Shown: positions 32,751-60,443 of the stretch, piece by piece | How the letters are laid out: the number at the start of each line of letters is the position of its first letter | How positions within the stretch are numbered: the stretch's first letter is position 1 | From: Uloborus plumipes | Lineage: Eukaryota; Arthropoda; Arachnida; Araneae; Uloboridae | DNA: 64,000 bases | NCBI GenBank assembly: GCA_038373865.1 | Contig: JAXGGA010003000.1 | Location: forward strand, 46,505 to 110,504 | Reading direction: 5' to 3' | Notes under the pieces: model-generated | The model's database searches: none | The model's input: the letters and a program-made list of their open reading frames with translations, nothing else | What the model was told of the DNA's origin: nothing | Position numbers and translations under genes: made by a program

Positions 32751-32752
32751 AT

Positions 32753-32758
32753 TTTATT
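32753..32758 (-). terminator. Poly(A) signal AATAAA of the micro-exon gene
   Basis: AATAAA on the minus strand, about 107 bases past the stop codon at 32865-32867. It sits in an otherwise AT-rich 3' region, so chance occurrence is possible, but the position fits a short 3' UTR. Confidence 0.6.
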
Positions 32759-32864
32759 GAACATTCATTTCCATATCATAGTTAACTTTAACCCATTCTC
32801 AAAAAAGCTTGAGAAACTAATTTCAAAAAAAGTATTCCAGAGGAAATTTATGTCCTTTTTTTGT

Positions 32865-32890
32865 CTATTCTTCGTCGTCCTGTGGTTGAG
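32865..32890 (-). CDS. Terminal exon: acidic tail and stop
   Basis: After acceptor tattttacag the exon reads SQPQDDEE then TAG (the Ser codon is completed from the T ending the previous exon). This is the only exon in the set that runs into an in-frame stop without a donor, and a poly(A) signal follows. The 26 coding bases fit the incoming phase exactly. Confidence 0.8.
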
Positions 32891-33284
32891 CTGTAAAATA
32901 GATATATTAAGTGAGTAAATCGATAAGCTATTAAAAAAGTAGATAATCTGCAAATATGAGAGTATACATGTGTTTTACATACAGAATGACCATAAACACT
33001 AACAAAATAAAATGTTTAAAACTCCTATCATATGATTCAAGATAAATATTTTGAAATTGAAAACTTAACTTTGTGACGGAGAAAACAGCTCAATAAAACA
33101 CATACTTGCAGACATTTTTCTCTGCTCTTGTTGTTTACTCAGAGTTGCTAATATTAATTTAATTAGTTTATAATTGCTTTTATAAAGATAAACATTACTC
33201 CATTTGATTCCCCAAGTGCCTCAAGTTTGGAAAAACATTCTTTTTGAATAAAACTATCTTTTATGATTCTATCTCCATATATTA

Positions 33285-33942
33285 TTTCTCTAAGCCGAAT
33301 CCTATACCCGGTCGAAACTCGCTCATTTCTTTATCGAATTGCAAGAAAATTTATGATTTTGAAGCTTATCCCGCGGGCTATTGACGAAAATTAGACCCAC
33401 CCTCTAAAAAGTGTCGGTTCGTTTTTTATTCGAACTTCAATTTTTGGGCACAAAATTGACTCTATCTAGCAAAATGTCGTATCGTCTCCATTTTGATTTC
33501 ATTCGAAAGATTAAAAAAAATGCGTTCTTTAGAACATTTCTCCGCTAGCGCCGCGTAACGAGAATCTCGAAAATCCACGCTTAAGCGACTTATAAGCGAT
33601 TGAAGTTTGAAAAGTTAAATTTTTTGCTCAACTGTCAAAATCGTTACCATTTTTGTTCAAATCAATTTTAAATGCGACATTTCAAGCCAAGGCTTAGCTC
33701 GGTAAACCTTAATTGTAACTTTTATTGTTTCAAAATACTATGGTAGTTTTGCGATAACGTTAATATTTAGTTTAGTGGTAGCCTTGGGTATTTGATTTTA
33801 ATATAGGGTATCACTTTTGTAGTAGTTGTAAAAGTGAACGTGTCTTTGATCTCTTTGAAAAGTTGTCAGAACGACGGCAGTAGATGGCGATGTTGTGCAA
33901 TTAAGCCAATAAAAATTGTCGTATTAAATTTTAAGTTTAGAG

Positions 33943-33975
<33 letters not shown>

Positions 33976-33998
33976 GGAATTCCGCACGGGTCACCTAG
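33285..33998 (+). mobile_element. Probable Helitron, 3' end at 33998
   Basis: gcggaattccgc forms a terminal hairpin, followed by acgggtcac and CTAG with T next, the Helitron 3' signature and insertion base. The stretch from about 33285 is non-AT-simple and lacks open frames. The 5' boundary is not certain. Confidence 0.5.
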
Positions 33999-34082
33999 TT
34001 ATATGTTAAATAGAAAGTTACCCCCTTTGAAAAAAGCATCAAGGGCTACATGCAATATACCGAAAACCCAATTATGCCATCC

Positions 34083-34125
34083 AGAGATTGCAGTTTCGTC
34101 CTTATTATGGACTCCGCAGTCGGTA
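34083..34125 (-). ncRNA. Decayed hammerhead motif, relative of 49795-49840
   Basis: The minus strand gives CTGCGGA in place of CTGATGA, then a GTCC-ATAATAA-GGAC hairpin, GAAA (34094-34097), and CTGCAATC. Stem II bases differ from the 49.8-kb copy (GTGC/GCAC), but the pairing is kept. Two core changes (and a G-to-A in stem III) should abolish activity. Flanking sequence also aligns with the 49.8-kb element. Confidence 0.6.
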
Positions 34126-34338
34126 ATAGACAATAATCGAGCTGAAGGCAGATATCTTTTCAATCAAGCTGAAAGTCTTCAATAGGCAATAATCTTCAGC
34201 TAGGACCGAGCTGAAGATTTAATTTGAATTGAATGAATTTTGATTTGAAATGTTTGGAGTCGCTGCGGGCCGCTAGGTAGCGGTATGTGTTGTTCCCGGG
34301 GACTCTATTTTTGAGGCAAATGCGATAAGTATTTACAG

Positions 34339-34508
34339 AGCCTGATTACTGAATGGGCCAACGAGGCCGTGGCCTAGGGCTCCCACGATTTAGGGGCCCC
34401 CAAATGGCTAAAACTGCTCTAATCAATGTCTAAATTGCAAAGCCTCAGTCCAGGGGGCCTCAAAAAAGTATTTGGCCAAGGGCCCCGTGATATCTTAATC
34501 GAGCCCTG
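34339..34508. mobile_element. Degenerate hAT-like element with CAGAGCCTGATTA / TTAATCGAGCCCTG ends
   Basis: cagagcctgattactgaatg and taatcgagccctgg are partly inverted copies with repeated ggggcc words between. Ends are mismatched and no target duplication was confirmed. Confidence 0.4.
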
Positions 34509-34963
34509 GGTATTTAATATTTCGGGAGCGTTGATGTTAAACATCCAATGCACGATGTTACAGAAGGAAGCCTTCTCTACTTGTACGTTCAATATTTTTC
34601 GGACCGATTGATTAGAAAAACGGATTTGAAGCGAAAAGAAAGTGGATGGGCATTGAATTTTTGGCGAGAGAGCGCTGTGCACTTAAGGATATCCATAATC
34701 GCATGTTTATGGGGATGCCGCAATGAGCATCAGCAGTGTTGGGCTCTGGTGGAGTTGTCTGGCAAAAAAAAAAAAAAAAAAACTGACAGGCGACAAGTCA
34801 ACAATTTCAGTCACATATGTAAATCGAGGACGTGCTGATGAATGGATCACAATTCACAAAGTTGCTGATTCATTTAAAGTATCTAGTGGCTTTGGCCAAG
34901 GTTGACTTGGGACATCGCAAAGTTTGCGCCAAGTCAGTTCCAAAGAATTATGTTAAAAGAGCT

Positions 34964-34993
34964 TTAACCCCTTCCCAGTAGGGAAGGGGTTAA
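34964..34993. repeat. Perfect 13-bp hairpin with AGTA loop
   Basis: ttaaccccttccc is followed by agta and the exact reverse complement. A looser analogue (taacccc...ggggtta) is at about 42823-42851. Function unknown. Confidence 0.6.
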
Positions 34994-35880
34994 CTGGTTT
35001 GCCTTCCCTTTGGGGCCTTCACTGATTTGCCCGTGTCTAATTTCCATTTCGCCATTTCGCTTTCACTGTTTCGCCCGAATCTTCTCTATTTTAAGTAGCA
35101 AATTATTCGTAAAGATGGTGATAGGTCTCCAGCGAAAGATAATTTGCATTCTAGTGTGTTTTCTACTCTGATTAGCTGGTAAATGTAAAATAAACAAAAT
35201 ACGCGTCAAAGAATTGAAAATTTTTTTAGACCGAACTCGGGGGGGGGGGGGAGATGAAACTGTTAAAGAGTTAAATTCATGGCTAAACAAGCCAATTGCA
35301 CGATGAGTTCTTCCGAAATAATTGAATACCTGTCTTCAGCAATAGCGGAAAACAGAAAGATATTTCTGTTCAGAAGAAAGTTCAGGATGTGACATATCTA
35401 ATAACTTTTGCTGTTATTCATTGATGAAGTTTTTATGATAAAGGAGGCATCATATTTTTTTATTCCCCTCGTGTTTTTCCCAATCGCAATTCCAATGAAC
35501 TATAAGAGGCGCCGAATTCTCTTGTTCATGGCAGTTGAAAACATAAAACAAACAAATGCCGTAACTTGAAATCTGATTTTAAAGCTTAGTGAACGACACA
35601 GTAGCTTTTTATCATTGTTATGGGGTTTTCTTTTCTAGTAAAATTACGTTAAATCAAAAATTGTCTGAAGCCATTTTCCACTGAATACCATTTACTACAA
35701 AGGTAAAAGGTGGAACGGAATGTTTTACCTCTTTCGGTAATTTCTAAAATCACCGCAAAGTAGCGTATTCAAGCTCTAGAACTACAAATTGATTAGTTCA
35801 ATGAAGTATAACGTAAAGCTTTAGAATCTAAAGAATGATAATAATGCCGATTCCAGTTTAAGGAACAAAAAGAAACTTAC

Positions 35881-35934
35881 ATCGTCTCCTGTTATTTCTC
35901 CTGCGTTGTCTTCTTTCTGGCATCGGCTCTTCAT
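35881..35934 (-). CDS. Micro-exon: acidic then Arg-rich, 54 nt
   Basis: Reads DEEPMPERRQRRRNNRRR after acceptor ttatctttcag, and ends at donor CGAT|gtaagt. The final T starts a Ser codon shared with the last exon, the only exon in the set not ending in G or A. The strongly basic run followed by an acidic tail could act as a processing, nucleic-acid-binding or polyanion-binding segment; none is demonstrated. Confidence 0.82.
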
Positions 35935-36979
35935 CTGAAAGATAATCACTTTGTTTAATCATGTCGTCAGAAAACAAGAATTAAACTATAGAATTAAGAG
36001 ATAACTGCTCGATGAGAAAAGACAAATTTAAATCAAAAATACTACTTCACGGTTTAATTGCTTTTTGCATGCCTTTTATAAATTCAAAAATGCATTTCGT
36101 TATAAATCATGGCTTCATAAAGGAGTTTCGTATTTCTCGCCAATAATTCGTTTCAGTAATGAAATTGTTATGCAATCAGATTTTTAAATTTGTTTTGTTA
36201 ATTTATTAGGGTTTAAGGTAATTTTCTCGGCAAAAATTAAATTATTAACAGCTTTTTGTTTGAAAATAATATGAATAATATACATATTCTCAGTATCATT
36301 TTGGAAATTATAGGGGTTTTATTGAAATGGGTGTATGTCTCGATCAATATTTAGAAATGAACTTCTATTTTTATAGCAAAGATGTTACAAATACTTTTCT
36401 TAAAAATTTGAACCCGCATTTCTGTCTCAAAAATAGTTTATAGCAAATGCAATGGTTCTGTTTAAAAACTAATATTTAGAAACACTCTACTTATTCTGAG
36501 ACGAATTTTGGGATCGCACTCATTAGCAAGTATGAAATTTAAAAGTAATGAATAATGAGGACAGTGTATTCCCAGAAATGAAAATATACATTAATACCAT
36601 CTTATGGGCACCCTTAATTTCATTTTTTATTTTAAATATATTTGGGAATGTAACTTGAATAAATGTAAATAACACGGGAAGGTTCTGTATGGAAGATGTA
36701 ATGCGATTTGTATGTGCGACGTTGCCAAGATTTGTATTTATTATACTTTTTTTAATTTTATTTCTCTATTATTTATTTCTGTATTAAAAGGATTTAAATT
36801 TTATTTTTCCGCTCAGTGACATTACAAAATTAGTCGTTCGTATTACATAAAAATTTAACGCCTATAGGTATTTGTACAATCCCATAGATTTTAATTACAA
36901 AGCATTACATAAAGAGGCACTGTCTATTTAAATGAAATAAACAAAATAATTTATATTTAAATAAATATTAAAAATCTAC

Positions 36980-37012
36980 CTTGTTCCTGGGTCCTTTTTC
37001 TTCCTCTGCGAC
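36980..37012 (-). CDS. Micro-exon: GRRGRKRTQEQ, 33 nt
   Basis: Acceptor ttttctag, donor CAAG|gtagat. Basic module bridging the Gln/Gly-rich region to the Arg-rich exon. GRRGRKR contains dibasic sites that could serve for proteolysis if the protein is secreted (inference). Confidence 0.8.
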
Positions 37013-37764
37013 CTAGAAAAAGTAATGAAATAAAATAAATCGAACAATTTGCCGAAATTTGAGAAAATATGGGATTAAGGAACTGTATTGAAATTATAGT
37101 CATTCAGAGTAACTTTGGTCTGTGATTGCTCTACTTTCAGTAATTTTGTCGCATCAGCAAAAAATTAACTTCTAAAGTAATGCTCAAAATTATGAAATAG
37201 GAAGGAGGGTCATTTCCTTCAGCCAAAAGTATTGCTTTTAGTCACTGATATTTGTAGAATAAAAAAGAAAATATTTCATTTTTTTTAACAGTTCATAAAT
37301 TAATTACTTTTTTAAAATGTCCAATTCCTAAAACAAAGCGAGGTCTGGTATGACGGCACAAATGAAGAAACTCTGGTGTTAAGCCAGGCCGACGCATCAG
37401 CCATTTTGGATTTCTGGTAACCCGAGCTCAGCAACAATGAAAAATCTGATCTAAAATGCCAGATCTTCTATAAAGCGGATTTGCTAAGACCAATTTGTCT
37501 AGTGACGTCAGTAGCGAAAACGAAACAGTGACTCGAAGTTTTTAAAAAAAAATTTCAAGAAAGAAAGTGTTACGAACACTCTCGATCAACTTTACTTTCA
37601 AAAAAAAAAAAAGTTTTCAAATGCGGTTCATCCGTTTAATCGCTAGTTCCTTCTCCGCTTAGGCCATCCTTTTTGCGTCGGGGGTTAAAAAAAAGGCACT
37701 TCAGCAGCATATTCGAAAAAAAAAAATAAATAAATAAATAAATAAAATAATGCGGTTTGCTTAC

Positions 37765-37818
37765 CTTGGCCCATAAACGATTGAGGACCTTGTTGAAACA
37801 TCTGACCACCTTGTTGAG
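37765..37818 (-). CDS. Micro-exon: Gln/Gly/Phe-rich, 54 nt
   Basis: Reads AQQGGQMFQQGPQSFMGQ plus a shared G, between acceptor gtttcttacag and donor CAAG|gtaagc. It has the highest Gln content of the set and an internal QQGGQMF/QQGPQSF near-repeat, suggesting it arose by fusing or duplicating a shorter unit. Confidence 0.83.
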
Positions 37819-37979
37819 CTGTAAGAAACATGAAAGAGAAGATTACAACATTTCGTAAAATTGATACTGAACTGTAAAATTCACTATACCAGTAATTCCC
37901 TTTTTTTTTTACGTCGCTACCACCTTTATACCAACTGAAGAACTTAAAGCTCCATATTTTAGACGGATTTTTGTAGTGG

Positions 37980-38490
37980 TGGAGGGGAATGGGGCATTCC
38001 CCCGGAAATATTTCGAAATTGAAGTCCGAAAATACACAATAGTAAGTCATTTTTAATGATGGTGGGTATTGCTCAGAGACTTTCCCCTGGATATTTTTTG
38101 AAATTTAAGTTCGAAAAATGTAATTTTAGATATCGTTACTTGTGTGCAGGCACACTCCAGGATTTTCTTTCTTTCTTTTTTTTATTTCGAAATTAAAGTT
38201 CAAAAATCCCAATTTTTGATGAAGTTGCGGAGCGGGATTAGGTTCGGACTTTTCCCCCGAAATATTCTCAAAATTAAATCATAGAAAGTCATTTTTACGC
38301 CATCTTTGATGACGTAAGAGTAAGAAATGAGGAGCAAAGACGCTCTTCCAGAAACTGTTCGATATTGTTCTAAACGCGAAATTTTAGACAATTGTTGATT
38401 TTTCGAAGAAGTGAAATTGGAGACTTTCGCGGAAATTTGTAGAGATTGAAGTTCTTAAATCGAAAGAAGACGTTACGGGAAGGGGGGGGG
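37980..38490. repeat. Degenerate tandem repeat in intron
   Basis: A phrase of the type ccggaaatatttcgaaattgaagtccgaaaa recurs in diverged form near 38000, 38095, 38190, 38270 and 38435. Related phrases occur at 11920 and 61020-61370, so this is a dispersed repeat family. Confidence 0.5.
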
Positions 38491-38654
38491 GGATAAAGTT
38501 CTAACTTAGGGGTGGTGACGCCAGCACTATAGCCCCTCTTTTGAATTCACCAATGCGCTCAAATATTGATGCTACTCAAAAGAATTTCTATTTTTTCCCT
38601 GTATATATATGTATATCACTTTTCAAACTTGTAATAATAATTTTTTTAAATCTT

Positions 38655-38735
38655 GGGACAATGTCGCGACCCCATAAGAAATGCTTTGGGACCCCACTTG
38701 TGGTCACGTCCCACAGGTTGGAAACCACTCCACTA
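38655..38735. mobile_element. hAT terminal fragment
   Basis: Read on the minus strand the end is tggagtggtttccaacctgt followed by gggacgtgacc, a common hAT terminus. The other end was not found. Confidence 0.45.
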
Positions 38736-39007
38736 TGCTGTCATGCTAAGAACAAAAGTCGTATCTGCACTTTTTGTCAAAAATGACTTACTGTCACCAG
38801 CTTGTTCCTAGTCACATGTTTCACCCAAACACAATGTTTTATGGTCTTTTTGTCCCCTTTTGGCCCTTTTGTCCATGGTAAATAGCAAAAAAAAAAAATT
38901 GAAAAAATTTCATCTAAAACAAATGCATTAGGACTCAAAACTTTAAACGGCAATTTATCATTTTGAAGTTGTCTGTAGGTATGACTTTTACGCTTAGCAC
39001 GGCAGTA
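38734..39007. mobile_element. MITE with GCTTAGCACGGCAG-type ends
   Basis: Ends tatgctgtcatgctaag and cttagcacggcagtat are inverted and match the ends of the larger element at 5038-6680. No open frame of note inside, so it is a non-autonomous derivative. Confidence 0.65.
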
Positions 39008-39064
39008 TACATATTAAGCAAAAACTTTTAGGATAAGCCATGTTCAGATTCATGGCGGCATTGT

Positions 39065-39245
39065 AGGCCCGTCATTTAAAGGGTTCGGGGGGGGTAGTGA
39101 ATTGCACCCCCTTGACTTTGAAAAATCAATGTATTTACACATTAGAGGCCGTGTTTTTTGTTAGTTTTTTTATGAAGTTTACATTGGATTTGCACCGTTT
39201 GACCCCTCCCCCCCCCCCCCGGAAAAATCTGAAATGATGGGCCTT
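39065..39245. mobile_element. MITE, GGCCCGTCATTT family, copy 3
   Basis: Opens aggcccgtcatttaaagggt and ends ctgaaatgatgggcctt, giving the clearest inverted ends of the three copies. Contains aaatcaatgtatttacacat and C-rich tracts. Confidence 0.75.
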
Positions 39246-40113
39246 GCGGTATTGTACTAAGCAAAATGTATTTAGATAGAAATAGATCAGGGCCGTGTTT
39301 AAGGGGTGGGTTTTTAGGGTTCTTATCTCCTCCGAAATTTTTCAAAACTATTCCAAAAAATACTTGTCACGCACATTTTTGGCTGAAAAAATTATTATTG
39401 TTATTTTGTTTCAATTTTCTCATTTACTTTGAAATTGAATTTGAAAAGCGAAATTATCATTATTGAATACATGTACAAATTAGATGTTTTTTCTCCAATA
39501 TTTTTATTGCAGTTATCTCAAACCGATACACCTTTTCCCTTCAAACTTCGAATACCACTAACAAAAACACCGATTTTTTTTAACTTGAAAGTACTAATTT
39601 GTATATTTAGCACATTTTATAAGTGTCATGAAATAGAAAGTTCTGAACTATTACTTGAAATGCGCATATATGGGTAAACACATCTATCCTCTTGAGTGAT
39701 TAAAAGACAGATTTTTTTTCTTACAATGAAAAGATGCGTTTTTTTTAATTTTTTTTACATTTTTCATGTTAACTCCCTTTTAACATCTACTCTAACAAAA
39801 ACTAATGAAATATAGAATATGTAATTAAATTTTATTAACCATATAGATTTCACGAGAAATGAAATCCCCGAAACTAAATTCTGGTTTCGGTTCTGAAATA
39901 GATAACGTTTTTTGAGAAAGCTAAATCGCATGTAGTATTTGTTTGATAAAATTTTAACGAATCATCTCAGAACATTTTTAAAACCACCCAGAGCAGTTTC
40001 AGTAACATTAATAGGGCAAAAGTGTCTCACTAAATCGTGGAAAATGCTAAATGCTGATAAGTTATGCCCGCCTTTTGTTTACATAGTGCGAATATCTTAA
40101 TTATATGTATAAC

Positions 40114-41256
40114 AAGAAGTTCTGTCAAGAACTAAACGAGCCTACTTTCCCGTACATCGACATCGGCATTCTAGCATCTGATTATTATTCTCTTGATTAT
40201 CTAAGACTAAAAATTATGTCAAACATACCTTTTTAGCACTTGAAGCTGATTTCTAAAAGCAAAATATACCCCTCTCATCAGATGAAATAGACACATAAAA
40301 AGTAGATAAATGAATAAATAAAGTTTTGTCGCACCTTTTAAAGAATGTAACTGTTACAGTTCTTCCGTAGAAAAATTCCTCAATTGTTTTCAAAAAAAAA
40401 TTAAAAGTACAAAGTACATCAAAACACATTTTATCAAAGAAAGAAAAAAAAAAGAAAAAAAAACTCGTCCGTTGATAAAATGTCTCGAATTTCACTTTTA
40501 ATCCGTTGCCAGTTGTTAAATATAAATAAAGAATAAAATGCCCTGTGAATGAAACATTTTTGTTACAAAAAAAATCGTCTGCCAAAAATAATAATAATAA
40601 TAATAATAAATTCAATAAAACAAATGAATAAATAAACAAAAAATCGTCTGCACAGTCAGTCATTTTTTTTTCGGACTGTTTACTCAAAAGTTATTAGGGG
40701 TGACAGCTTGCTTGAGCGGTTCAATGTTGAACGAAAAATTGTTCAAATCGGAAATGTAAATACGGGAATGAAGTATCCTTGAAAAGTTCTTTCCAACAAA
40801 AAAAAGTTTGTTCAAATCGGACTGTTCATTAAAAAGTTAGTATCGCGGGACCGGTTGTTTGAACGGCTCAAATTTGAACCAAAAATTGTTCAAATCAAAA
40901 AATCAAATATGGGAATGAGCTGTACTCGCCGAGATCTTTCCAACAAAAAAAAGTTTGTCCAAATCGGAATGTTCATTCAAAAGTTATTAGGGGGGGACAG
41001 ACAGACCGACCGACCGACCGACCGACCGACAGACACACAAATTCCCCATCTCAATACCCTACTTTCAAATTTTTAATTTTTCGATATTCATATTACCTCT
41101 TTATTTTTTTAACTTGGCGATATTTTTTGGACTTGGCGATATTTTTTTTAACTTGGCGATATTTTTTGGACTTGGCGATATTTTTTAGATGCATTAAGCT
41201 ACTTTTAATACTTTTTTCGTCTTTTTTTTATTTTTAACGGGAAAGTAGGCTAAAAA
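40114..41256. repeat. Dispersed repeat, short copy (pair of 16871-18717)
   Basis: Same start and end phrases as the 16.9-kb copy, but only about two of the 145-bp tandem units (about 40670-41000). It carries an extra aacttggcgatattttttgg duplication and a longer gaccgaccgacc run. It lies in an intron of the micro-exon gene between the exons at 41293 and 37765. Confidence 0.75.
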
Positions 41257-41292
41257 AACAGACAGAAAGAAAGAAAACGAAAAAATCGTACC

Positions 41293-41325
41293 TTGATCCG
41301 TAAGTTGTGACTGAGCTTTCTGACC
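41293..41325 (-). CDS. Micro-exon: GQKAQSQLTDQ, 33 nt
   Basis: Acceptor ctttttttctcag, donor CAAG|gtacga. Same length and 1-1 phase as the array modules, but a unique sequence. Begins only 37 bases from the end of the dispersed repeat at 40114-41256. Confidence 0.8.
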
Positions 41326-42572: not shown

Positions 42573-42681
42573 TGTTCAAAAAAACATTTTATGACATTTT
42601 TAGGTTTTCCAGAAAACCTAGAAATCTGAATATAGAATGTTACAAAAAAAATTTTACATTAGCTCAAAAACACAGCCGTAC

Positions 42682-42714
42682 CTCTTTTCATCATACCGCC
42701 ACCCATCTGTTGAC
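42682..42714 (-). CDS. Micro-exon: GQQMGGGMMKR, 33 nt
   Basis: Acceptor tttgtttcag, donor AGAG|gtacgg. Gly/Met-rich module, unique in sequence but with the G-Q-Q start of the GQQLSSMGQDA family. Confidence 0.82.
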
Positions 42715-43386: not shown

Positions 43387-43407
43387 CTTGTTTCATTGCA
43401 GATTTAG
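43387..43407 (-). CDS. Micro-exon: AKSAMKQ, 21 nt
   Basis: Acceptor cttttttttccag, donor CAAG|gtaagt (perfect consensus). Diverged member of the AKAGMEQ family of 21-base exons. Confidence 0.82.
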
Positions 43408-43526
43408 CTGGAAAAAAAAGAAAAAATAACTATAATAAGCAAGCAATTTTCTAAGCGTTATGGTTCAAAAACAGTTTCATTATTCCCGCATATTAAAGTT
43501 CAGCTGTTTAGAAAATGATATTTTAC

Positions 43527-43559
43527 CTGCATCGCCTCCCATTGATTGAATTTGTTTCC
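43527..43559 (-). CDS. Micro-exon: GKQIQSMGGDA, 33 nt
   Basis: Acceptor attatttgcag, donor GCAG|gtaaaa. Diverged member of the GQQLSSMGQDA family, positioned at the 3' end of the last higher-order unit. Confidence 0.85.
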
Positions 43560-44752: not shown

Positions 44753-44773
44753 CCTGATCCATGTCCATTTTTG
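44753..44773 (-). pseudogene. Decayed micro-exon of the AKAGMEQ family
   Basis: Aligns base for base with exons at 48645 and 52925 and would read AKMDMDQ, but the donor is AT (44751-44752) instead of GT. The acceptor tttgcag is intact. Three residue changes and a dead donor indicate loss; skipping it keeps frame. Confidence 0.7.
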
Positions 44774-44975: not shown

Positions 44976-45008
44976 CTCCGTCCTTCAGGGCCGACATTCC
45001 CTGTCCAG
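44976..45008 (-). CDS. Micro-exon: AGQGMSALKDG module
   Basis: 33 nt, acceptor cttctcttatag (one base differs from the family's ttttag), donor GGAG|gtaatt. Uses AAG for the Lys codon where most copies use AAA. Confidence 0.88.
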
Positions 45009-45238: not shown

Positions 45239-45271
45239 CTCCGTCTTTCAGGGCTTTCTGTCCCTGTCCAG
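45239..45271 (-). CDS. Micro-exon: AGQGQKALKDG module
   Basis: 33 nt, acceptor cttctcttttag, donor GGAG|gtaatt. QK replaces MS. This sub-type is always the most 5' AGQG exon of its cluster (also 53420 and 59106), as expected if clusters were copied as blocks. Confidence 0.88.
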
Positions 45272-46832: not shown

Positions 46833-46865
46833 CTCCGTCCTTCAGGGCCGACATTCCCTGTCCAG
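46833..46865 (-). CDS. Micro-exon: AGQGMSALKDG module
   Basis: 33 nt, acceptor cttttcttttag, donor GGAG|gtaatt. Its 5' neighbour in the unit pattern, a VSQG mini-exon, is cleanly missing at about 46937. Confidence 0.88.
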
Positions 46866-47144
46866 CTAAAAGAAAAGTACGTTTAATTAGGCTCAAAAAT
46901 AGTTGGAAAAGAATGAATAGACTTTTTGATAACGTTTAGGAAAAATTTTAGCATTATTTATTTATTTTTTAACATACAATACAGTAAAATAAAACAAACA
47001 TTATGTCACTCAAAAGCGTGCACGGACACGATCGAGATAAGCTCGTTATTGCTGAATTTCTGTTTTTAAAGCTCATGCTTTGTTTAATTTTTTATTTATT
47101 TATTTATTTTATTTTTTACATCCAACCTCAGACACATTTAAGCT

Positions 47145-47462
47145 AAGGCAGGGATTCAAGTGAAACAGCAATGCGATCGCTTCGAATGCAATCGCTACTG
47201 GAAGTGAATTACATTATCATCAGCTTAACTTGGCACTGATGTCACTACGAGCGGAGCCAATAAGAGCTCACAAGCAGTCGGCCATCTCCTCTTATTCGCC
47301 AAGTAGGCTGTGACGTTTTATCTAGCTCGTTTTTCATAGGCAAACGTCACGATGAACGTTCTAATGTAATTCATTTCCAGTATCAAGAAACGTTCTAATG
47401 TAATTCATTTCCAGTAGCGATTGCAGTTTGCGATAGCCTGTTTCACTTGAATCCCTGCCTTA
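47145..47462. mobile_element. Palindromic MITE, AAGGCAGGGATTCAAGTGAA family
   Basis: Inverted ends aaggcagggattcaagtgaa and ttcacttgaatccctgcctt. Interior arms pair around gacgt and cattccagta-like blocks. Three close relatives lie at 57668, 60541 and 5196, two of them in introns of the same gene. Confidence 0.8.
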
Positions 47463-47874
47463 AATATTTCCCGTTCTCAAATAACCATATAATTTTTTAT
47501 TTGGGTAAAATACGTCACAAAGAGCTACCTGGTGGCGATGACTCAATTTTGTCAAAAAGTGCAGATACGACTTTTGTGCTTAGCACGGCAGTATACTCCA
47601 CAAAAGGTACGGGGTTGGGCTCAAATAGTTTATTTTGAATTTTTGAACTCTCTAGAAAACATGATTGTGGTCTACCGACTCAAAACAAATAAATAAATAA
47701 ATAAATAAACAGTTAACGATAGGGGTTTTTTTTCCTATTCTTTTCTCCTTCAAAATAAAAAAGAGAAATAATTCCAAAAATATTTTGAATTAATACCCCA
47801 AATGAAATAATGATTAATTGTCCTTTTTTATTCCCGAATATTAAAGTTCAGGTGCTTCGAAAAAGATATTTTAC

Positions 47875-47907
47875 CTGCATCTTGTCCCATTGAAGAAAGT
47901 TGTTGCC
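47875..47907 (-). CDS. Micro-exon: GQQLSSMGQDA module
   Basis: 33 nt, acceptor attatttgcag, donor GCAG|gtaaaa. Marks the 3' end of one higher-order unit. Near-identical to 54023 and 50771. Confidence 0.88.
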
Positions 47908-48644: not shown

Positions 48645-48665
48645 CCTGCTCCATGCCAGCTTTTG
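48645..48665 (-). CDS. Micro-exon: AKAGMEQ, 21 nt
   Basis: Acceptor ttttttcacag, donor CAGG|gtaaga. Intact counterpart of the decayed exon at 44753. Confidence 0.86.
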
Positions 48666-48870: not shown

Positions 48871-48903
48871 CTCCGTCTTTCAGGGCCGACATTCCTTGTC
48901 CAG
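48871..48903 (-). CDS. Micro-exon: AGQGMSALKDG module
   Basis: 33 nt, acceptor cttctcttttag, donor GGAG|gtaatt. Synonymous CAA for the first Gln. Its intron unit of about 328 bases is shared with the neighbour at 49199. Confidence 0.88.
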
Positions 48904-49198: not shown

Positions 49199-49231
49199 CT
49201 CCGTCTTTCAGGGCCGACATTCCCTGCCCAG
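49199..49231 (-). CDS. Micro-exon: AGQGMSALKDG module
   Basis: 33 nt, acceptor cttctcttttag, donor GGAG|gtgatt (a gtg donor unlike the usual gta). Synonymous GGG for one Gly. Confidence 0.87.
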
Positions 49232-49352: not shown

Positions 49353-49364
49353 CTCCTTGGGCGA
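49353..49364 (-). CDS. Mini-exon VAQG (12 nt), or AQSAVAQG (24 nt to 49376)
   Basis: Two in-frame acceptors are possible: an inner ctgcag giving 12 nt (VAQG) and an outer tcctcag giving 24 nt (AQSAVAQG, to 49376). Both keep frame here. Across the three copies only the inner site is always usable, so the 12-nt form is preferred. The donor is GC rather than GT (49351-49352), making this the one GC-AG intron in the array. Confidence 0.65.
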
Positions 49365-49772
49365 CTGCAGATTGAGCTGAGGACAAAATTGTTGGAATTA
49401 TTATTTTCAAATGTATAATAAAACAAACATTATGTCCCTCAAAAGCGATAAACTCGTGACTGTTAAGATTAAAAGATAAACTCGTTACTGCTGAATTTGT
49501 TTTTTAAATCTCATGCTTTATTTATTTATTTATTTATTTCATCCAACCTCGGACACATTTAAGATAAACTTGTTACGACTGAGTTTCTGTTTTTCTAAAG
49601 CTCATGCCTTTTTTTTTCTTTTATCCTTTTTTTTTAACTTTTTTTTTTTTTTTGTATCCAACCTCAGACACATTTTGGAAAAACTCATTACCATTGAATT
49701 TCTGTTTTTTAAAGCTCTTGCCTGTTTTTTTCCTGCCAGGAATGACTTTAAGAAGACTCTTATTTACAATAC

Positions 49773-50770: not shown

Positions 50771-50803
50771 CTGCATCTTGTCCCATTGAAGCAAGTTGTT
50801 GCC
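50771..50803 (-). CDS. Micro-exon: GQQLASMGQDA module
   Basis: 33 nt, acceptor gtttgcag, donor GCAG|gtaaaa. One residue change (S to A) relative to 47875 and 54023. Confidence 0.87.
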
Positions 50804-50984
50804 CTGCAAACAATTACGGAATCCACTATTAGTTTATTGCATTGACACATCTAAAAACAGACTAAAAAGATAAACAATATTATAAACAGCGTTATTTCAC
50901 ATTTGTACCGTCACGCCGCTGTGAAAGAGAAATGTGCCTCCGAGATATAAATTTGAAACACAGAAAGTATAAAATAATCCTAAA

Positions 50985-51410: not shown

Positions 51411-51415
51411 AATAA

Positions 51416-52924: not shown

Positions 52925-52945
52925 CCTGCTCCATGCCAGCTTTTG
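52925..52945 (-). CDS. Micro-exon: AKAGMEQ, 21 nt
   Basis: Acceptor ttttcgcag, donor CAGG|gtgaga. Identical peptide to 48645. Confidence 0.86.
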
Positions 52946-53148
52946 CTGCGAAAAAAAATTATAAAAAAGTATATTACTTCAACTGAAAAACTATTTTATG
53001 AAAAAAAAAGTAAGAAAAATGACACAGAGTGTATGAAAATAAAAAGGATTTTTTAATATCATAAAATATTTTTAAATGAGCTAAAGAAAATTAGAGAAAT
53101 GCGATTATACTTTTATTTTAGCAAAGACTATTCCAAAATAAAAATTAC

Positions 53149-53181
53149 CTCCGTCTTTCAGGGCCGACATTCCCTGTCCAG
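53149..53181 (-). CDS. Micro-exon: AGQGMSALKDG module
   Basis: 33 nt, acceptor cttctcttttag, donor GGAG|gtaatt, consensus sequence of the family. Confidence 0.88.
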
Positions 53182-53419
53182 CTAAAAGAGAAGTACGTTT
53201 TAGAATAAAAGTATGACTAAAATGAAAAAAACTATTTAAAGAAATAATTAGTAAAAAACAACACAAACGCAAAGTATATGAAAATTAAATCAATGTTTAA
53301 AGTTAAGCTTTAAAATAAGTATATTAAATATAATAAAATATTTTCAAACAAGATGAAAAACAAGTAAAAATGCGATTATACTTTTATTTTAACAAAGACA
53401 ATTCCAAAATTAAAATTAC

Positions 53420-53452
53420 CTCCGTCTTTCAGGGCCTTCTGTCCTTGTCCAG
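53420..53452 (-). CDS. Micro-exon: AGQGQKALKDG module
   Basis: 33 nt, acceptor cttctcttttag, donor GGAG|gtaatt. Synonymous differences from 45239 (CAA, AAG). Confidence 0.88.
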
Positions 53453-53591
53453 CTAAAAGAGAAGTATTTTAAATTATACCCAAAACTGCTTAGAAAAGAA
53501 TGAATAGACTTTTTAATAACGTTTAGGAAAAGAATTAAATCAAAATTAAGAAGTTATCCTAAAAGCAAAATTTGAGAAATTGTATTGTTAC

Positions 53592-53603
53592 CTCCTTGGG
53601 AGA
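53592..53603 (-). CDS. Mini-exon VSQG (12 nt)
   Basis: With the inner ctgcag acceptor this is 12 nt reading VSQG before donor GGAG|gtaaca. The outer acceptor (exon to 53623) would give 32 nt because of an 8-base insertion (ttgcgcag on the minus strand), and would shift the frame. Only the 12-nt form fits the rest of the gene. Confidence 0.6.
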
Positions 53604-54022
53604 CTGCAGACTGCGCAATTGAGCTGAGGACAAAAATTTTAGCAATATATTTTTTTTTTCAAATATAGGGGAATATGGGGCAAAGTGAAAAGGTAAATAT
53701 TTTCAGTTTGCAGCGCAACCTATCTAGCAGTATTTCAAATAAGTTCCTAGACATATAGTTAATTCCTGTCAAAAAATAAGTAGCTCCAAAGATCAACGAA
53801 AAAAATTATACAAGCTATTTTCAAAATTTGATACCTTTACTGTAATATTTGTGATTTTTCAAAAATATTTCTTGTTATTATAAAATGATAAAATTTTTAT
53901 GTTTATCATTTAAACTATTAATTGAGATCTACTGATGCCCAATGCAGTCCTTGTTGGTCCAAGACAGTTTTATTATTTTTCCCGAATATTAAAGTTCAGC
54001 TGCTTAGGAAAATATATTTTAC

Positions 54023-54055
54023 CTGCATCTTGTCCCATTGAAGAAAGCTGTTGTC
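54023..54055 (-). CDS. Micro-exon: GQQLSSMGQDA module
   Basis: 33 nt, acceptor attatttgcag, donor GCAG|gtaaaa. The first Gly codon is GGA here rather than GGG. It is followed (5' side of the gene) by a 4.2-kb intron swollen by insertions. Confidence 0.87.
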
Positions 54056-54887
54056 CTGCAAATAATTACGTAATCCATTATTAGTTTATTGCATTGAAGC
54101 ATCTAAAAACAGACTCAAAAGAGAAACATTATTATAAACAGCATTATTTATTAAAAGCATTATTTTTTTTTTAAATTAGGCATGTTTTGATTTTTAATGT
54201 TTAGTGTAATTTGTCAAGTGCACGCGGGGCAAAGTGAACGGGGCAAAGTGAAATAGTTCATTTCGTTTACTTATTGATTAATTTATTAAATCACTTACGT
54301 ATTTCTTCATTTATTAATTTATTGACATTCTTTTACGTAATTATTTACTAATTTGCTCCATTAATTAACTTATTTATGATCCCTTCTCTTATTTATTCAC
54401 TCATTTGTTTCTTAGGGTCAGGTGAGGTTAAAAAGGGTCACGTTTATTAGAAAAATTTTTAAAAAATGTACAAATGACATTTTCTTTCTCTGTTGCCATT
54501 GTTGTGCATTATTGACGCCTGGCAACATTTTGTATGCAAAATAAGGTGTAACTTCTACTTTAAAGTTACAAATACTACAGCGATTAAGTGTTTTTCTTGA
54601 AAGAAACTTGACTATGTTCATCTTAAAAACTTTTGACTTAAAGAAAATAAAATGAAAATACACGTTAAGTTTTTAACCTACTGCATAGAGCATATTTTCA
54701 GGAATAACTTCCTAAAATGGTGAAGAAAAAACAGTAAAACTGAATTTTTTGTAGTATTAAAACAAGCGTGGGGTAAAATGGGTCATTTATCGCCTTAAAT
54801 TAGGCTTAGAATATATTAAAGAGCTAATCATTTTTTTTGCTGATTAACTCATGTTTTGGTGTCATGAATGAACAAACTAATTCAAAA

Positions 54888-56523
54888 TCTTACTACTATT
54901 ATAAATGCGAAAGTTTGGATGTTTGGATGTTTGGATGTTTGGATGTTTGTTCCTCTTTCACGCAAAAACTACTGAACGGATTTCAATGAAACTTTTACCA
55001 TAATGTAGCTTATGCATCAGAATAACATATAGGCTATAATTTATAACGATATTCGAAAAAGTTCGATTGGTAGCGCTTTTTCATTCCAATTTAAGGTACA
55101 TTTTTCGCATAAATCCGCGAAGGCTTCTATCAAACTAATTCAGTATTTATTGCATTATCTCAACTCCCTGTCGATAGGTAGAATTGCGTGTATCATTTCC
55201 GCTTATCGCATTAAATGTTCAAGGCTTTTCTCAAGTCAAATCAAAAAGTAATTTTTTTCCAGCTTCGTGGTTAATATAAAGGCTTTTACATACGAGTAGA
55301 CATTGGAAACAAATGCGCGTCAGTAGGCAAACGAGCTTTTACTATGATTTGTATTTTAAAACATTTTGTAGTCTTAGTTGTAAGTAGAATATTTATCATT
55401 AAGACAATGTGTTTTTATTGTGCTTTGAAACTCGCAAATATTATTTTGTAGAATAAATTGTACTCCTTTATTAGTAGATTGTTCACTGCATCAATTATTT
55501 TCTCGAGTTTTGTAAATATGTGATTTAGAGTATCGGTAACGTAATCGCTTGAAGAGATTGGCAACTGGATTAGGTTCATTATTTTCCAATTTGATGGAGC
55601 TTTAAATACAACTTAACGGTATTTCTTAAATATTTTTGCGTTGATTGGTCACTTTCTCTGGGTACTTACAATAGGGCAGTTTCTTAGTATCCGATTGAAC
55701 TGGAATTTTGCCAAATTTGCTGCAAGATTTCAATAACTGAGATTCTCCTCGATTTTTTTCAACTGACGCCAGTTTTTGTGCCAAAGACTACGTAATAATA
55801 CTTTACTTTTTGCACGACATAACCAAAATAAAACAATTATTATCTGACAATTATTATCTGACAATTATTATCTGATCGACTGGCGGCAAAATCTCAATCA
55901 TTGATATAATACTCCCACATTTGAAAAGTTGGAGTATTATATTGATGATTGAGATTTTGCCGCAGTCGATAAATATCAGATAATAATTGTTTTATTTTAT
56001 TTTGGTTATGTTGTGTAAAAAGTAAAGTATTATTACGTATTTTTTTTCCTTTTGTTTTCCGATTCCGTATGTATCCATTAAAAACCTTTTTAAAATTATG
56101 TCAAAAAGTAAAGTAATCCACATACTAAATTAATAAAACCCTTAAACAAGACTAAAATTACCATTAATTTGCATTTTTGCATAAATAATTGCTAAATGTT
56201 CCCTATTAATTTCGAAATCATTTAGGATAAAAAATTTTAACGTCATTTTATGGTCAGCAATAGTATCTCAACATTTGATTTCCATTTCTCTGTGACAAAA
56301 ATTAGTGACATAATAATACTTAATGTATTTTCATAAAGTAAGGAGGGGAGCATAATTATCCTAGGTATCCCAAAACAGTTACGCAAAAATTTGGCGACAT
56401 TTTAAAAATCGTCAAAGCGGTGTGTTTTGAGTTCTTTCAGTTCAGGGGAAAAAAAACGAAGGTTGAGTATATAAATTGTTTCTCAATATTACTGACCCAG
56501 GCAACGCCGGGTATTTTTGCTAG
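54888..56523 (+). mobile_element. Non-autonomous Helitron, 1.6 kb
   Basis: Begins TCTTACTACTATTATAAATG after A and ends with a cccaggcaacgccggg hairpin, tatttttg and CTAG before T. A tandem ttggatgt repeat (x4) lies near the 5' end (54912-54945). Internally there is an inverted repeat of about 100 bp arms at about 55795-56040, with three tandem acaattattatctg units in one arm. No Rep/helicase frame. Confidence 0.78.
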
Positions 56524-56564
56524 TAAATAATACATTGCTTGGTCATTCTTTTGATTCACAAATA

Positions 56565-57229
56565 TACAGGGTGTCCAGTGTCCACTCCTATCGTGACCCA
56601 ATAGCTAATTTCTAAACCGTTAGAGATAAGCATATAGTTCATTTAGGAAAAAATCTCCAAATCACGAAAAAAATTTTGGGTCTATTCAATGTTTTTCAAA
56701 AAATTAAATTTTGAAAGAGTTACGAAATTTTAATTTTTACACAGCCCCCCAGTCCTATCAATCATATTTAGTAAAACATTCTTGACACTGTAACGTTTAA
56801 AACTAGAAAAAAATCACTGTCCTACCACAAAAATTGACCGAGTTATAACGTTTTAAAAAATCAAGATTTTGCATTACTTCATGACGTCATGGAGAGATCG
56901 CTTAAGGGACCGTATGCGAAATCCTTCAAAATCTTGATTTTTCAAAACGTCATAACTCGGTCAATTTTAGTCGTAGAACAGTGATTTTTTTAAAGTTTTA
57001 AACGTTACAGTGTCAAAAATGTTTTACTAAATATGATTGATAGGACTGGGGGGGGCCTTATAAAAATTAAAATTTCGTAACTCTTTCAAAATTTGATTTT
57101 TTGAAAAACATTTCATCGACCCAAAATTCCTTTCGTAATTTAGAGATTTTTTCCTAAATAAACTATATGCGTATCTCTAACGGTTTAGAAATTAGCTATT
57201 GGGCCACGATAGGAGAGGACACCCTGTAT
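56565..57229. mobile_element. Palindromic MITE with TACAGGGTGTCC ends
   Basis: Arms of about 310 bp are inverted copies between tacagggtgtcc and ggacaccctgta. It was inserted about 40 bp from the Helitron end. The spacer contains catgacgtcatg. Confidence 0.8.
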
Positions 57230-57310
57230 AAACTTATGCACAATAAATAAATTAAATTGAAAATCCAAAACTAAAAGCACAGCTTTTGCTCGATAAACTT
57301 CCTTCAAGAA

Positions 57311-57514
57311 ATGTTGTTAGGGACTAAAGCAAAAATATCTTATTTTGACCAAAGAGAGACGGATAGGCAAAAAATCATAGGAAAGCAATCTAAAGAGCTG
57401 AATTCAAATATTGTAGCTGAAGGAACGCAATCTACATCTAAGATCTCAACAACAAGTGGATCTGTTTCTTCGATATTGGAACAAGCGAGTCAATCATGTG
57501 CTTTATTTTTATGA
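57311..57514 (+). other. Unrecognised 67-codon open frame
   Basis: Starts MLLGTKAKISYFDQRE and has a Ser/Thr/Gln-rich second half. More protein-like than most short frames here, and antisense to the host gene. It may be part of an old transposon; no domain can be named and no splice context is evident. Confidence 0.25.
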
Positions 57515-57667
57515 AATAGTAAAACTTCTATTATAAGCACACTCTCACCGGAACCAATCACCAAAAGTAAAGAAGAAACTTTAAAAGTTACCAAAAGAGA
57601 ACAGCACGCATGCAGAAAGAAACTTGTGAAACACTAACAAGCTTGACAATATTGAAAAATTTCAATC

Positions 57668-57976
57668 TAAGGCAGGGATTCAAGTGAAACACCATTGCAA
57701 TCGCTTCGAATTGCAATCGCTACTGGAAGTGAATTACATTATCATCAACTTAACTTGGAACTGACGTCACTACGGATGGAGCCAATAAGAGCTCACAAGC
57801 AGTCAGTGATCTCCTCTTATTCGCCAAGCAGGCTGTGACGTTTTATCTAGCTCGTTTTTCATAGGCAAACGTCACGCTGACGTCACGATGTTTTTATCAA
57901 GAAACGTTCTAATGTAATTCATTTCCAGTAGCGATTGTAATTTGCGATCGCCTGTTTCACTTGAATCCCTGCCTTT
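57668..57976. mobile_element. Palindromic MITE, AAGGCAGGGATTCAAGTGAA family
   Basis: The most regular copy: taaggcagggattcaagtga to its inverse, about 309 bp. The arms carry tgacgtca-type words (for example in cacgctgacgtcacgatg). Confidence 0.85.
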
Positions 57977-58234
57977 AAAGCCTAAAGAGATAAAAAATCA
58001 ATTAAACTGACACGCAGACGCAAAACTAAATAAATAACCCTTTTTTTTAAGGGAATTCATAACTGAATCGAAGTGCATTGATAACACTTTAAAAAAGCAT
58101 TGATAACACTTTAAATAACCTTTAAAAGTTGGAAAGTGGGAACAAGTTAAGTCTTTAGAGAAAAATGTCAAAAAAGTATATTTTCATGCCATCATTCTTC
58201 CCCACAATGTAAACTATTCCAAAATTCAAATTAC

Positions 58235-58267
58235 CTCCGTCTTTCAGGGCCGACATTCCCTGTCCAG
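58235..58267 (-). CDS. Micro-exon: AGQGMSALKDG module
   Basis: 33 nt, acceptor cttctcttttag, donor GGAG|gtaatt. Last AGQG exon of the first complete cluster. Confidence 0.88.
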
Positions 58268-58519
58268 CTAAAAGAGAAGTACGTTTCATTAGACTCAAAA
58301 CTGCTTGAAAAAGAATGAATAGACTTTTTGATAGTTAAAAAAACTATTTAACGAAATAATTAGTAAAAAAGAACACAAAGTGTATGAAAATTAAATAAAT
58401 GCTTAACGTTAAGCATTAAAATAAGTATATTAAATAGAATAAAATATTTTAAAACAGAAAACTAGAGAAATGCGATTATACTTTTATTTTAGCTAAGACT
58501 ATTCCAAAATTAAAATTAC

Positions 58520-58552
58520 CTCCGTCCTTCATTGCCGACATACCCTGTCCAG
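58520..58552 (-). CDS. Micro-exon: AGQGMSAMKDG module
   Basis: 33 nt, acceptor cttctctttcag, donor GGAG|gtaatt. L to M change shared only with 58843, so these two arose from one duplication. Confidence 0.87.
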
Positions 58553-58842
58553 CTGAAAGAGAAGTACGTTTAATTACTCAAAACAACTTGGAAAAGAATG
58601 AATAGACTTTTTGATAGTGTTTAGGAAAACAATTATAATAATTTACGTTAAGTAATAAAAAACGTATTACTTAAAGTAGAAAACTATTTTATGAAAAACA
58701 TGGTAAGAAAAATGGCACAGAGTTCACGAAAATAAAATGTATTTTTTAATATCATAAAGTATTTTCAAACAAACTGAAGAAAACTGGAGAAATGCGATTA
58801 TACTTTTATTTTAGCAAAGGACTATTCCAAAATTAAAATTAC

Positions 58843-58875
58843 CTCCGTCCTTCATTGCCGACATTCCCTGTCCAG
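58843..58875 (-). CDS. Micro-exon: AGQGMSAMKDG module
   Basis: 33 nt, acceptor cttctcttttag, donor GGAG|gtaatt. Sister of 58520, 323 bases apart. Confidence 0.87.
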
Positions 58876-59105
58876 CTAAAAGAGAAGTACGTTTTAGTAT
58901 TAAAGTATTACTTGAATTAAAAAACTATTTAACGATATAATTAGTAAAAAACAACAAGAAGTATATGAAAATGAAATCAATGTTTAAATTTAAGCATTAG
59001 AATAAGTATATTAAATATGATAAAATATTTTCAAACAAGATAGAAAACAAGTGAAATGCGATTATACTTTTATCTTAGCAAAGACAATTCCAAAATTAAA
59101 ATTAC

Positions 59106-59138
59106 CTCCGTCTTTCAGGGCCTTCTGTCCCTGTCCAG
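59106..59138 (-). CDS. Micro-exon: AGQGQKALKDG module
   Basis: 33 nt, acceptor cttctcttttag, donor GGAG|gtaatt. Intron context nearly identical to that of 45239. Confidence 0.88.
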
Positions 59139-59278
59139 CTAAAAGAGAAGTACTTTAAATTAGACTCAAAACTGTTCGGAAAAGAATGAATAGACTTTTT
59201 GATAACGTTTAGGAAAACAATCAAGTCAAAATTAAAAAGTTATCCTAAAAGCAAAATTTGCGAAAATTTTATAACTAC

Positions 59279-59290
59279 TTCCTTGGGAGA
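59279..59290 (-). CDS. Mini-exon VSQG (12 nt), outer acceptor lost
   Basis: The inner ctgcag acceptor gives VSQG and donor GGAA|gtagtt, still in frame with 59106 (junction codon ACT, Thr). The outer acceptor has mutated from AG to AC (59312-59313), and the sequence before the inner site has an in-frame 9-base duplication. Weak donor; may be inactive. Confidence 0.5.
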
Positions 59291-60172
59291 CTGCAGATTG
59301 AGTAGATTGAGGTGAGGACAAAAATGATAACATTATTATTTTCAAATATATAACGCAATATAATAAAACAAACCTTATATCACTCAAAAGCGTAAGGCAG
59401 CAAAAATTATGTTTTTTAGTTTTCCTGATTTAACTTTTAATTATAATTGTATTCTAAAGGATTGATGCTGTACGTTTTTGCGCGTTAACTCGCGAGAATA
59501 TATCTCCGTTATTTGTCACACGAGCGCTCGAAACGCTCATTTCGCTACAAGGGTCGAAAACGACCCCAGTACTCGCTAAAGACTCCCGTTTTAGCAAGAA
59601 TGGAAAGGGTTTAGGAAAATTTCAAAAACAGCCTCATATTAATCAAGGACACAATTGCAGCTACCGAAAAGATGGTTTCCTTATCAGGCTATGAAATTCC
59701 AAGAAATGGAAAAAAAAAAAAATAGCTGTGGTCGTTTTCGACCCCGCTCAAGCTCTGAGCCTTTCGCAAATTGAAAAAAGGCAAAGGGTTTTGAAATGGT
59801 AGGAATGCGTACAAGAGGAGTTATTATGGAGCAGACTGCGCCACTGAAATTTTTAGGGAGAAAGTTTTACGGGCATTTTTCTCTTTCTTGGAAGGTTTTC
59901 GTTCTTGAGGGTTAGCCACGGTATTTGAAGGGGTGCTCGGATGGATACCCGTGCGACAGGAGTGCATAAAACACTAATAGTGTTACAGTATTTAAGATAA
60001 AAGAGAGAGCCAAACTTTGGAAAGAAACTCAGAAACCTCATTAACATATTTAAAATGAAAAACGTCTCACGATACAGAAAAATAATGCAAAGAGGGAAAT
60101 AAAACGTTTTTGATAATTACATTGCTTAGCCACTTGTTATTTATTACAACATAAGAAATGTTAATTACTTAC

Positions 60173-60205
60173 CTATATTATTTCCCATGCCGCCCACTTT
60201 TTTGC
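60173..60205 (-). CDS. Micro-exon: GKKVGGMGNNI, 33 nt
   Basis: Acceptor ttttctcttttag, donor ATAG|gtaagt (perfect consensus). Unique sequence, distantly similar in layout to GKKFAKMGTDA. Confidence 0.83.
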   Translation of the reverse strand, partial: AKKWAAWEII

Positions 60206-60410
60206 CTAAAAGAGAAAAAACATTTTAAATAATTCATATACTTATAGCAAAAATACTGATAATATCACTTCAAAATACTGATTATGGAACAGTTGACCTC
60301 ATAGACATGTACAGATACTTAAGTAAACTAGTATTTAATTTTATTCTAAAACATTTTCTTGCAGTTTTTTCAACGCTAAAAATATTGGGAAACATAAATA
60401 AATTATTTAC

Positions 60411-60443
60411 CTGCATCCGTACCCATTTTGGCAAACTTTTTCC
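60411..60443 (-). CDS. Micro-exon: GKKFAKMGTDA, 33 nt; most 5' exon seen
   Basis: Acceptor tttattacag, donor GCAG|gtaaat. Shares the G-x-x-x-x-x-M-G-x-D-A frame of the GQQLSSMGQDA family, so may represent the founding module. No initiator or signal-peptide exon was found between here and the right edge. Confidence 0.83.

Follow-up and report, generated by a model that had tools for sequence, protein, structure and literature searches.

Micro-exon genes (MEGs) of schistosomes are described as encoding secreted proteins through many small exons, mostly multiples of 3 in length, that are set between long introns, and the bicycle genes of aphids likewise specify secreted arthropod proteins by many small exons of the same phase. 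Tropoelastin, a low-complexity secreted protein with a basic C-terminal motif, is encoded at one exon per domain and is alternatively spliced, and perilipin 4, placed in the 3-11 helix group with α-synuclein and the apolipoproteins, contains a long, glycine-rich run of 11-mers with a weak hydrophobic moment and few aromatic residues (these accounts follow PMC8692038, PMC9170102, PMC9932165, PMC9168663, PMC10526429, PMC7947355 and, for perilipin 4, PMC5889406). Points of likeness to each of the four, alternative splicing being tropoelastin's own, are found in a gene read here from the minus strand of a 64,000-nucleotide (nt) stretch of the spider Uloborus plumipes, termed the window (C3000:46505-110504, contig JAXGGA010003000.1, in a genome of 1.42 Gb). 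As judged from its exons, the chances are evenly balanced that this gene encodes a secreted-looking 3-11 helix protein of ~374 residues which coats an apolar surface and whose length is set by exon number.

MEG exons are given as mostly 15 nt, whereas those of the spider gene are mostly 33 nt (20 of the 26 exons in the window, none being 15 nt); MEGs form a multi-gene family, whereas the spider gene was found once; and at the place of the hydrophobic or aromatic Trp motif reported soon after the MEG signal peptide, the spider gene has ELSEARKQKQQPKPKY, which is lysine/glutamine-rich and acidic. Internal exons that are mostly multiples of 3 and lie within 6-81 nt are present, as is an N-terminal signal peptide by eye. 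The schistosome MEG design proposed in a sequence-only reading of the window therefore stands as to architecture but not as to exon size, post-signal motif or copy number. Bicycle exons are of phase 2 and carry CYC motifs, in contrast to the phase 1, cysteine-free exons found here. Elastin-type hydrophobic and cross-linking sequences are not seen in the spider gene, and perilipin 4 coats intracellular lipid droplets with 33-residue repeats, whereas the spider product looks secreted. To our knowledge, perilipin 4 carries no signal peptide. The exon borders of tropoelastin are of phase 1, and the 54-bp exons of fibrillar collagen are quantised in size to the structural repeat of the protein; collagen counts the Gly-X-Y triplets of the triple helix, whereas the spider gene would count turns of an α-helix.

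Architecture of the micro-exon array

Exons were found by reading the minus strand and were then joined by script; positions are window coordinates throughout (Table 1). From 60443 down to 32865, 26 exons were identified, 25 of them internal and the final coding one 26 nt long. The internal exons measure 33 nt (20), 21 nt (3) or 54 nt (2), and all 25 are multiples of 3 and of phase 1-1, the first base of each falling on codon position 2 and the last on codon position 1. AG precedes 26/26 exons and GT follows 25/25 internal ones, with introns ranging from 119 to 4179 nt. Once joined, the exons give 285 aa in one open frame that ends at a TAG stop, the initial G being taken as given by a preceding exon, and AATAAA starts 106 nt past the stop. 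With internal exon lengths all divisible by 3, any of these exons could be skipped in frame. A minus-strand array of phase 1-1 micro-exons with matching splice sites, skippable without frameshift, had been proposed earlier and is borne out; the "at least 27 exons" of that proposal compare with 26 in the window, although the array goes on beyond it, and of the proposed range of 12-54 bases the internal sizes of 21, 33 and 54 nt stand, while 12 nt is possible only for a shortened version of the D copy at 53.6 kb.

The region was also scanned for open phase 1-1 exons of 9-75 nt with general metazoan splice-site weights, which were written down rather than trained. Within 32.7-60.5 kb, 27 acceptors reached a score of at least 5 on the minus strand against 1 on the plus strand, compared with a mean of 1.6 and a maximum of 6 in 300 dinucleotide shuffles; this count differs from the exon list, some exons being counted by several acceptors and some weak-scoring copies being missed. 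At score 10 the same region gave 7 on the minus strand and 0 on the plus strand (shuffle mean 0.15), and the whole window had 24 minus-strand and 5 plus-strand acceptors at score 6, and 8 and 0, respectively, at score 10. The array is very likely a real gene. A 24-nt exon-like stretch, KSASSAKK (40229-40252, minus strand, phase 0, between AG and GT), was rejected because the array frame would break. No tRNA or Rfam match was found within the window, and the A-exon pattern described below had 0 matches in viral contigs.

Helix register of the modules

For the helix analysis, 25 modules totalling 269 aa were joined, 23 from the window and 2 from a second contig, C13237, which carries the 5' part of the gene; the acidic exons and the tail were omitted. 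Module lengths are 11 residues (20), 7 (3), 10 (1) and 18 (1), so that 24/25 modules are of 11-, 7- or 18-residue length. These lengths approximate 3, 2 and 5 turns of an α-helix, with net rotations at 100 degrees per residue of +20, -20 and 0 degrees, respectively. Modules of such lengths, when joined, would therefore make up a single amphipathic 3-11 helix whose face changes little along its length. A 3-11 helix is recognized by 11-mer repeats with one hydrophobic face, and both are found here in the 20/25 modules that are 11-mers and in the register tests that follow. The description of the product as modular and low-complexity, given in the sequence-only reading, was right about the modular array but overlooked this in-register amphipathic 11-mer helix.

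The hydrophobic moment of the joined modules peaks at 98.75 degrees (3.65 residues per turn) with a normalised value of 0.435, against a spectrum median of 0.039, and the directions of the single modules agree with a mean resultant length of 0.89. The observed moment was matched in 0/5000 shuffles within modules and reached in 0/20000 trials with one permutation per family. Random isoforms retaining half of the modules kept a median moment of 0.447 (5th percentile 0.418) and single-module skips gave 0.420-0.448, whereas random deletions of 5-17-residue segments lowered the median to 0.294 (95th percentile 0.393). As a quantitative and controlled observation drawn from few independent families, this suggests that the exons are quantised to the helix.

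Expressed on the scale in use for established helices, the modules have a median moment of 0.31 over 33-residue windows (range 0.22-0.42) and a mean hydrophobicity of 0.08-0.09; hydrophobic residues make up 32%, aromatic ones 2% and charged ones 19%. For perilipin 4, the corresponding values in PMC5889406 are a moment of 0.257 with 35% hydrophobic, 0.2% aromatic and 15% charged residues, and the protein is described there as unfolded in solution and as binding better when longer. Net charge in the spider protein is -17 in the acidic head, +10 in the modules and +4 in the tail.

Second contig, copy history and relatives

The window ends where contig C3000 ends, and the gene runs past this point; its 5' part lies on C13237 (35,920 bases, same genome), which is 95.4% identical to the window at 53279-54888 and 95.9% at 56524-62241, the intervening stretch being present in the window only. 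Six further 5' exons on C13237 have AG/GT sites and the phase of the array, and the internal exons of both contigs range from 21 to 69 nt, all multiples of 3. A TATA box, TATATAAA, lies 150 nt upstream of the ATG and TCATC lies 120 nt upstream, and the predicted protein begins, by eye, with a signal-peptide-like MKFLFVVALVGALALA followed by ELSE. A search of the genome contigs with 674 nt of distinct exons, whose counts are lower bounds that take in close copies only, returned 29 matches, 22 on C13237 or C3000 and 7 on four other contigs, all of the latter to the acidic stretch. Two paralogue candidates among them, L026 (C4001) and L029 (C3434), proved to be simple trinucleotide repeats; inspection covered these two, with the matches on C1161 and C4461 outside it. 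Leaving aside the acidic-stretch matches, C13237 alone carries the six head exons and C3000 alone the tail exons H, I and J. The two contigs are therefore taken to overlap within a single locus, probably as two alleles, with the gene found once in the assembly as a lower bound.

Three families recur in the array, namely A (AGQGMSALKDG or AGQGQKALKDG), B (GQQLSSMGQDA and relatives) and C (AKAGMEQ). The fixed order claimed for them earlier is visible as a recurring B-(D)-A-A-C, but it is imperfect, with gaps and extra A copies, and damage is seen in the D copies and in one of the C copies. Exons were duplicated jointly with flanking intron, as seen in 22 self-match pairs of at least 250 nt and 70-93% identity, some of which derive from a mobile-looking element. 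Copies of a mobile-looking element with ends GCAGGGATTCAAGTGAAACAG stand in both orientations at 57659-57977, 60540-60857 and 47137-47469; two are intronic within the gene and the other lies immediately 5' of exon B0. The interval from A(QK) to C contains one A exon in the window (53181) and two on C13237 (4471, 4296), and the surroundings of the C and B exons of C13237 are only 82% and 84% identical to the nearest window copies; as far as these two contigs represent the locus, the module number is variable between them.

Variant sites within exon subfamilies comprise 10 synonymous and 2 non-synonymous sites (P = 7e-5 against a neutral synonymous share of 0.27), in a test of four subfamilies and 20 copies (4 from C13237) with transitions weighted 2, the divergent copies w43559 and w44773 omitted, and one site that varies in two subfamilies counted twice. 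On the sequences compared, this excess shows that the exon copies are under purifying selection. Exon columns are free of gaps, compared with 4-12% gaps in the wider flanks, and mean divergence is 10-14% in exons, 16-39% in wider flanks and 6-9% in the 20 nt before exons. Between the contigs, exons differ at 2/264 bases (one N to K) and introns at 2.3-3.1%, a weak contrast.

Searching the 285-aa window model against 5.8 billion proteins gave no match at E<=10 among the best 7999 candidates scored, and a 268-aa shortened mosaic of both contigs gave none at E<=10 among 2515 candidates scored; a search of the PDB found no match at E<=1. Two Pfam families matched the 285-aa part below their cut-offs. 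HK97-gp10_like (E 0.018, 16.4 bits against 21.4) was taken as a chance match, and apolipoprotein A1/A4/E (PF01442; E 0.11, 12.6 bits against 90) agrees with an 11-mer helix without being evidence of homology. The perilipin family is absent from these two, as is elastin, the presence of an elastin model in Pfam being unchecked. As a control, a spidroin N-terminal domain from the same genome recovered 4 spider proteins at 55-62% identity; spider proteins are therefore in the database, although gene models may still miss such exons. No paper on spider micro-exon genes was found in the open-access literature searched. It is likely that the protein has no known relatives in the databases searched, in agreement with the earlier remark that no described arthropod family with such modules was known.

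Table 1. Exons and associated features of the array (window coordinates unless C13237 is named)
Feature	Peptide or content	Position	Strand	Remark
Head exons on C13237, in order	signal-peptide exon MKFLFVVALVGALALAELSE; ARKQKQQPKPKY; TEDYDDDDYADDG; EDSYGDEDDAEEDDDDAGGFLGN; SNDLFKMPGNA; GKQFGKISEK
B0	GKKFAKMGTDA	60411..60443	-	AG/GT, phase 1-1; identical on C13237
K	GKKVGGMGNNI	60173..60205	-	GKKVGGMGKNI on C13237
Decayed D copy		59278..59311	-	CAC at acceptor place
A (QK type)	AGQGQKALKDG	59106..59138	-
A	AGQGMSAMKDG	58843..58875	-
A	AGQGMSAMKDG	58520..58552	-
A	AGQGMSALKDG	58235..58267	-
B	GQQLSSMGQDA	54023..54055	-
D copy, 32 nt		53592..53623	-	frame-breaking; possible 12-nt in-frame exon VSQG from inner AG (53603-53592)
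A (QK type)	AGQGQKALKDG	53420..53452	-
A	AGQGMSALKDG	53149..53181	-
C	AKAGMEQ	52925..52945	-
B	GQQLASMGQDA	50771..50803	-
D copy, 24 nt	AQSAVAQG	49353..49376	-	GC in place of GT
A	AGQGMSALKDG	49199..49231	-
A	AGQGMSALKDG	48871..48903	-
C	AKAGMEQ	48645..48665	-
B	GQQLSSMGQDA	47875..47907	-
A	AGQGMSALKDG	46833..46865	-
A (QK type)	AGQGQKALKDG	45239..45271	-
A	AGQGMSALKDG	44976..45008	-
Decayed C copy		44753..44773	-	without GT donor
B-like	GKQIQSMGGDA	43527..43559	-
C-like	AKSAMKQ	43387..43407	-	top splice-site scores among candidates listed
F	GQQMGGGMMKR	42682..42714	-
G	GQKAQSQLTDQ	41292..41324	-
H, 54 nt	AQQGGQMFQQGPQSFMGQ	37765..37818	-
I, basic tail	GRRGRKRTQEQ	36980..37012	-
J, 54 nt	DEEPMPERRQRRRNNRRR	35881..35934	-
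Last coding exon	(S)QPQDDEE + TAG	32865..32890	-
Start of 3' untranslated region	AATAAA begins 32758	32743..32864	-	3' limit provisional
Junction-crossing stretch of joined modules	...ALKDGAGQGMSALK

The host is identified as a spider by 21 spidroin N-terminal domain matches on 19 contigs of the genome, compared with 0/14 control genomes; one such domain, at C2995:96987, precedes a glycine/alanine-rich repeat of the major ampullate type. Elsewhere in the window, a possible start exon of a neighbouring gene lies at 29908-30020 on the minus strand (ATG near 30005, MPPKWNFDWQWFVCFHIAAVYLQVCAVSDLNG, strong donor gtgagt), and a near-perfect inverted repeat occupies 1061-2208 and 3519-4666, with 1148-nt arms that are 99% complementary and 1310 nt apart. 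Tandem arrays of a 146-147-bp unit are found at 17642-18509 and 40671-41000, the latter within an intron of the gene.

Competing explanations and a proposed role

Several observations weigh against a surface-coating 3-11 helix. A glycine content of 23% disfavours a stable helix in water, the module directions spread from -46 to -149 degrees, and the lone 10-residue module would give the face a rotation of about -80 degrees. The helix analysis extends neither to the tail nor to the acidic exons (12, 13 and 23 aa), and the 374-aa protein analysed is a mosaic of both contigs. Repeats of 11 residues give harmonic power near 98 degrees by themselves, and the strictest control, one permutation per module length, reached the observed moment in 10/20000 trials rather than in none. 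Adding one residue per junction reduced the moment near 100 degrees to 0.117, but left a peak of 0.31 at 90 degrees, as of a 12-mer repeat. Because the families are related by duplication, the exon sizes amount to few independent observations, and low divergence alone is no proof of coding, because the 20 nt before the exons, which contain the acceptor tracts, are equally conserved.

It is somewhat unlikely, among the other explanations, that the product is a secreted structural or silk-associated polymer of elastin-like or SpiCE-like kind, in which modules assemble into coacervates or coiled coils, head and tail pair through their acidic and basic character, and the register serves chain packing instead of lipid binding. 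The signal-peptide-like start, the Gly/Gln/Ala-rich modules, the opposite net charges of head and tail and a silk-making host would all suit such a polymer, but low mean hydrophobicity and many glycines would make a poor coiled-coil core, and the 374-aa mosaic contains no cysteine. Precedents in the literature are tropoelastin, which is alternatively spliced, devotes one exon to each domain and ends in a basic GRKRK, and non-spidroin silk proteins of unknown function.

A micro-exon gene serving isoform diversity, as proposed for schistosome MEGs, would deliver spliced variants of a gland secretion in which the helix is incidental. The symmetry of all internal exons and the difference in module number between contigs would fit this, as would the report that MEG-24 and MEG-27 bind liposomes, possibly via amphipathic helices. 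However, within each of the A, B and C families the copies encode almost the same peptide, with an excess of synonymous variants rather than diversification, so that skipping would alter length more than sequence, and the head and tail exons occur once each in the assembly; the explanation is accordingly regarded as improbable.

It is very improbable that the gene was formerly active and is now decaying, with the array as a relic. Splice sites or length are damaged in the D copies and one C copy, and the introns contain repeats as well as inverted repeats, but 26 exons (chosen for fitting) join in one frame to a stop, the start is promoter-like and a poly(A) signal is present, and both the synonymous excess and, weakly, the lower exon than intron difference between contigs speak for constraint. 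A chance or low-complexity artefact, for which AT-rich DNA would supply the weak splice-like sites seen in the shuffles, is the least probable of all, being made unlikely by the strand and shuffle controls, the synonymous excess and the 5' end in matching phase on another contig.

On the reading preferred here, that of a surface-coating 3-11 helix protein, the product would consist of a signal peptide, an acidic tyrosine-containing N-terminal region, about 25 short modules and a basic C-terminal tail. The tyrosines in the acidic run are possible sulfation sites. The protein would be made and secreted, its module region would be unfolded in solution and become helical on an apolar surface, and binding would be tighter with more modules. 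Exon number, through genomic copy number and perhaps through alternatively spliced isoforms, would set the length of the helix while frame and face stay constant. Candidate surfaces in a spider are silk and its lipid coat, glue droplets, cuticle, egg surfaces and the air-water interface, among which no choice is made.

The more specific idea that exon sizes are quantised to the α-helix, each micro-exon adding near-whole turns so that a change in splicing or copy number resizes a secreted helix as a ruler or adhesion dial, is held a little below even. Both schistosomes and aphids are known to have symmetric micro-exon genes, which in the former are tied to isoform diversity; near-identical modules and the synonymous excess suggest another purpose here, with exon borders placed at helix turns and length adjustable without structural penalty. 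Micro-exon genes are easily overlooked by gene finders, MEGs having been noted as difficult for automatic annotation, and this may explain the lack of an annotated relative in a database that does contain spider proteins. If the idea is true, the gene would represent an α-helical counterpart of the 54-bp collagen exon, in a spider and without known relative.

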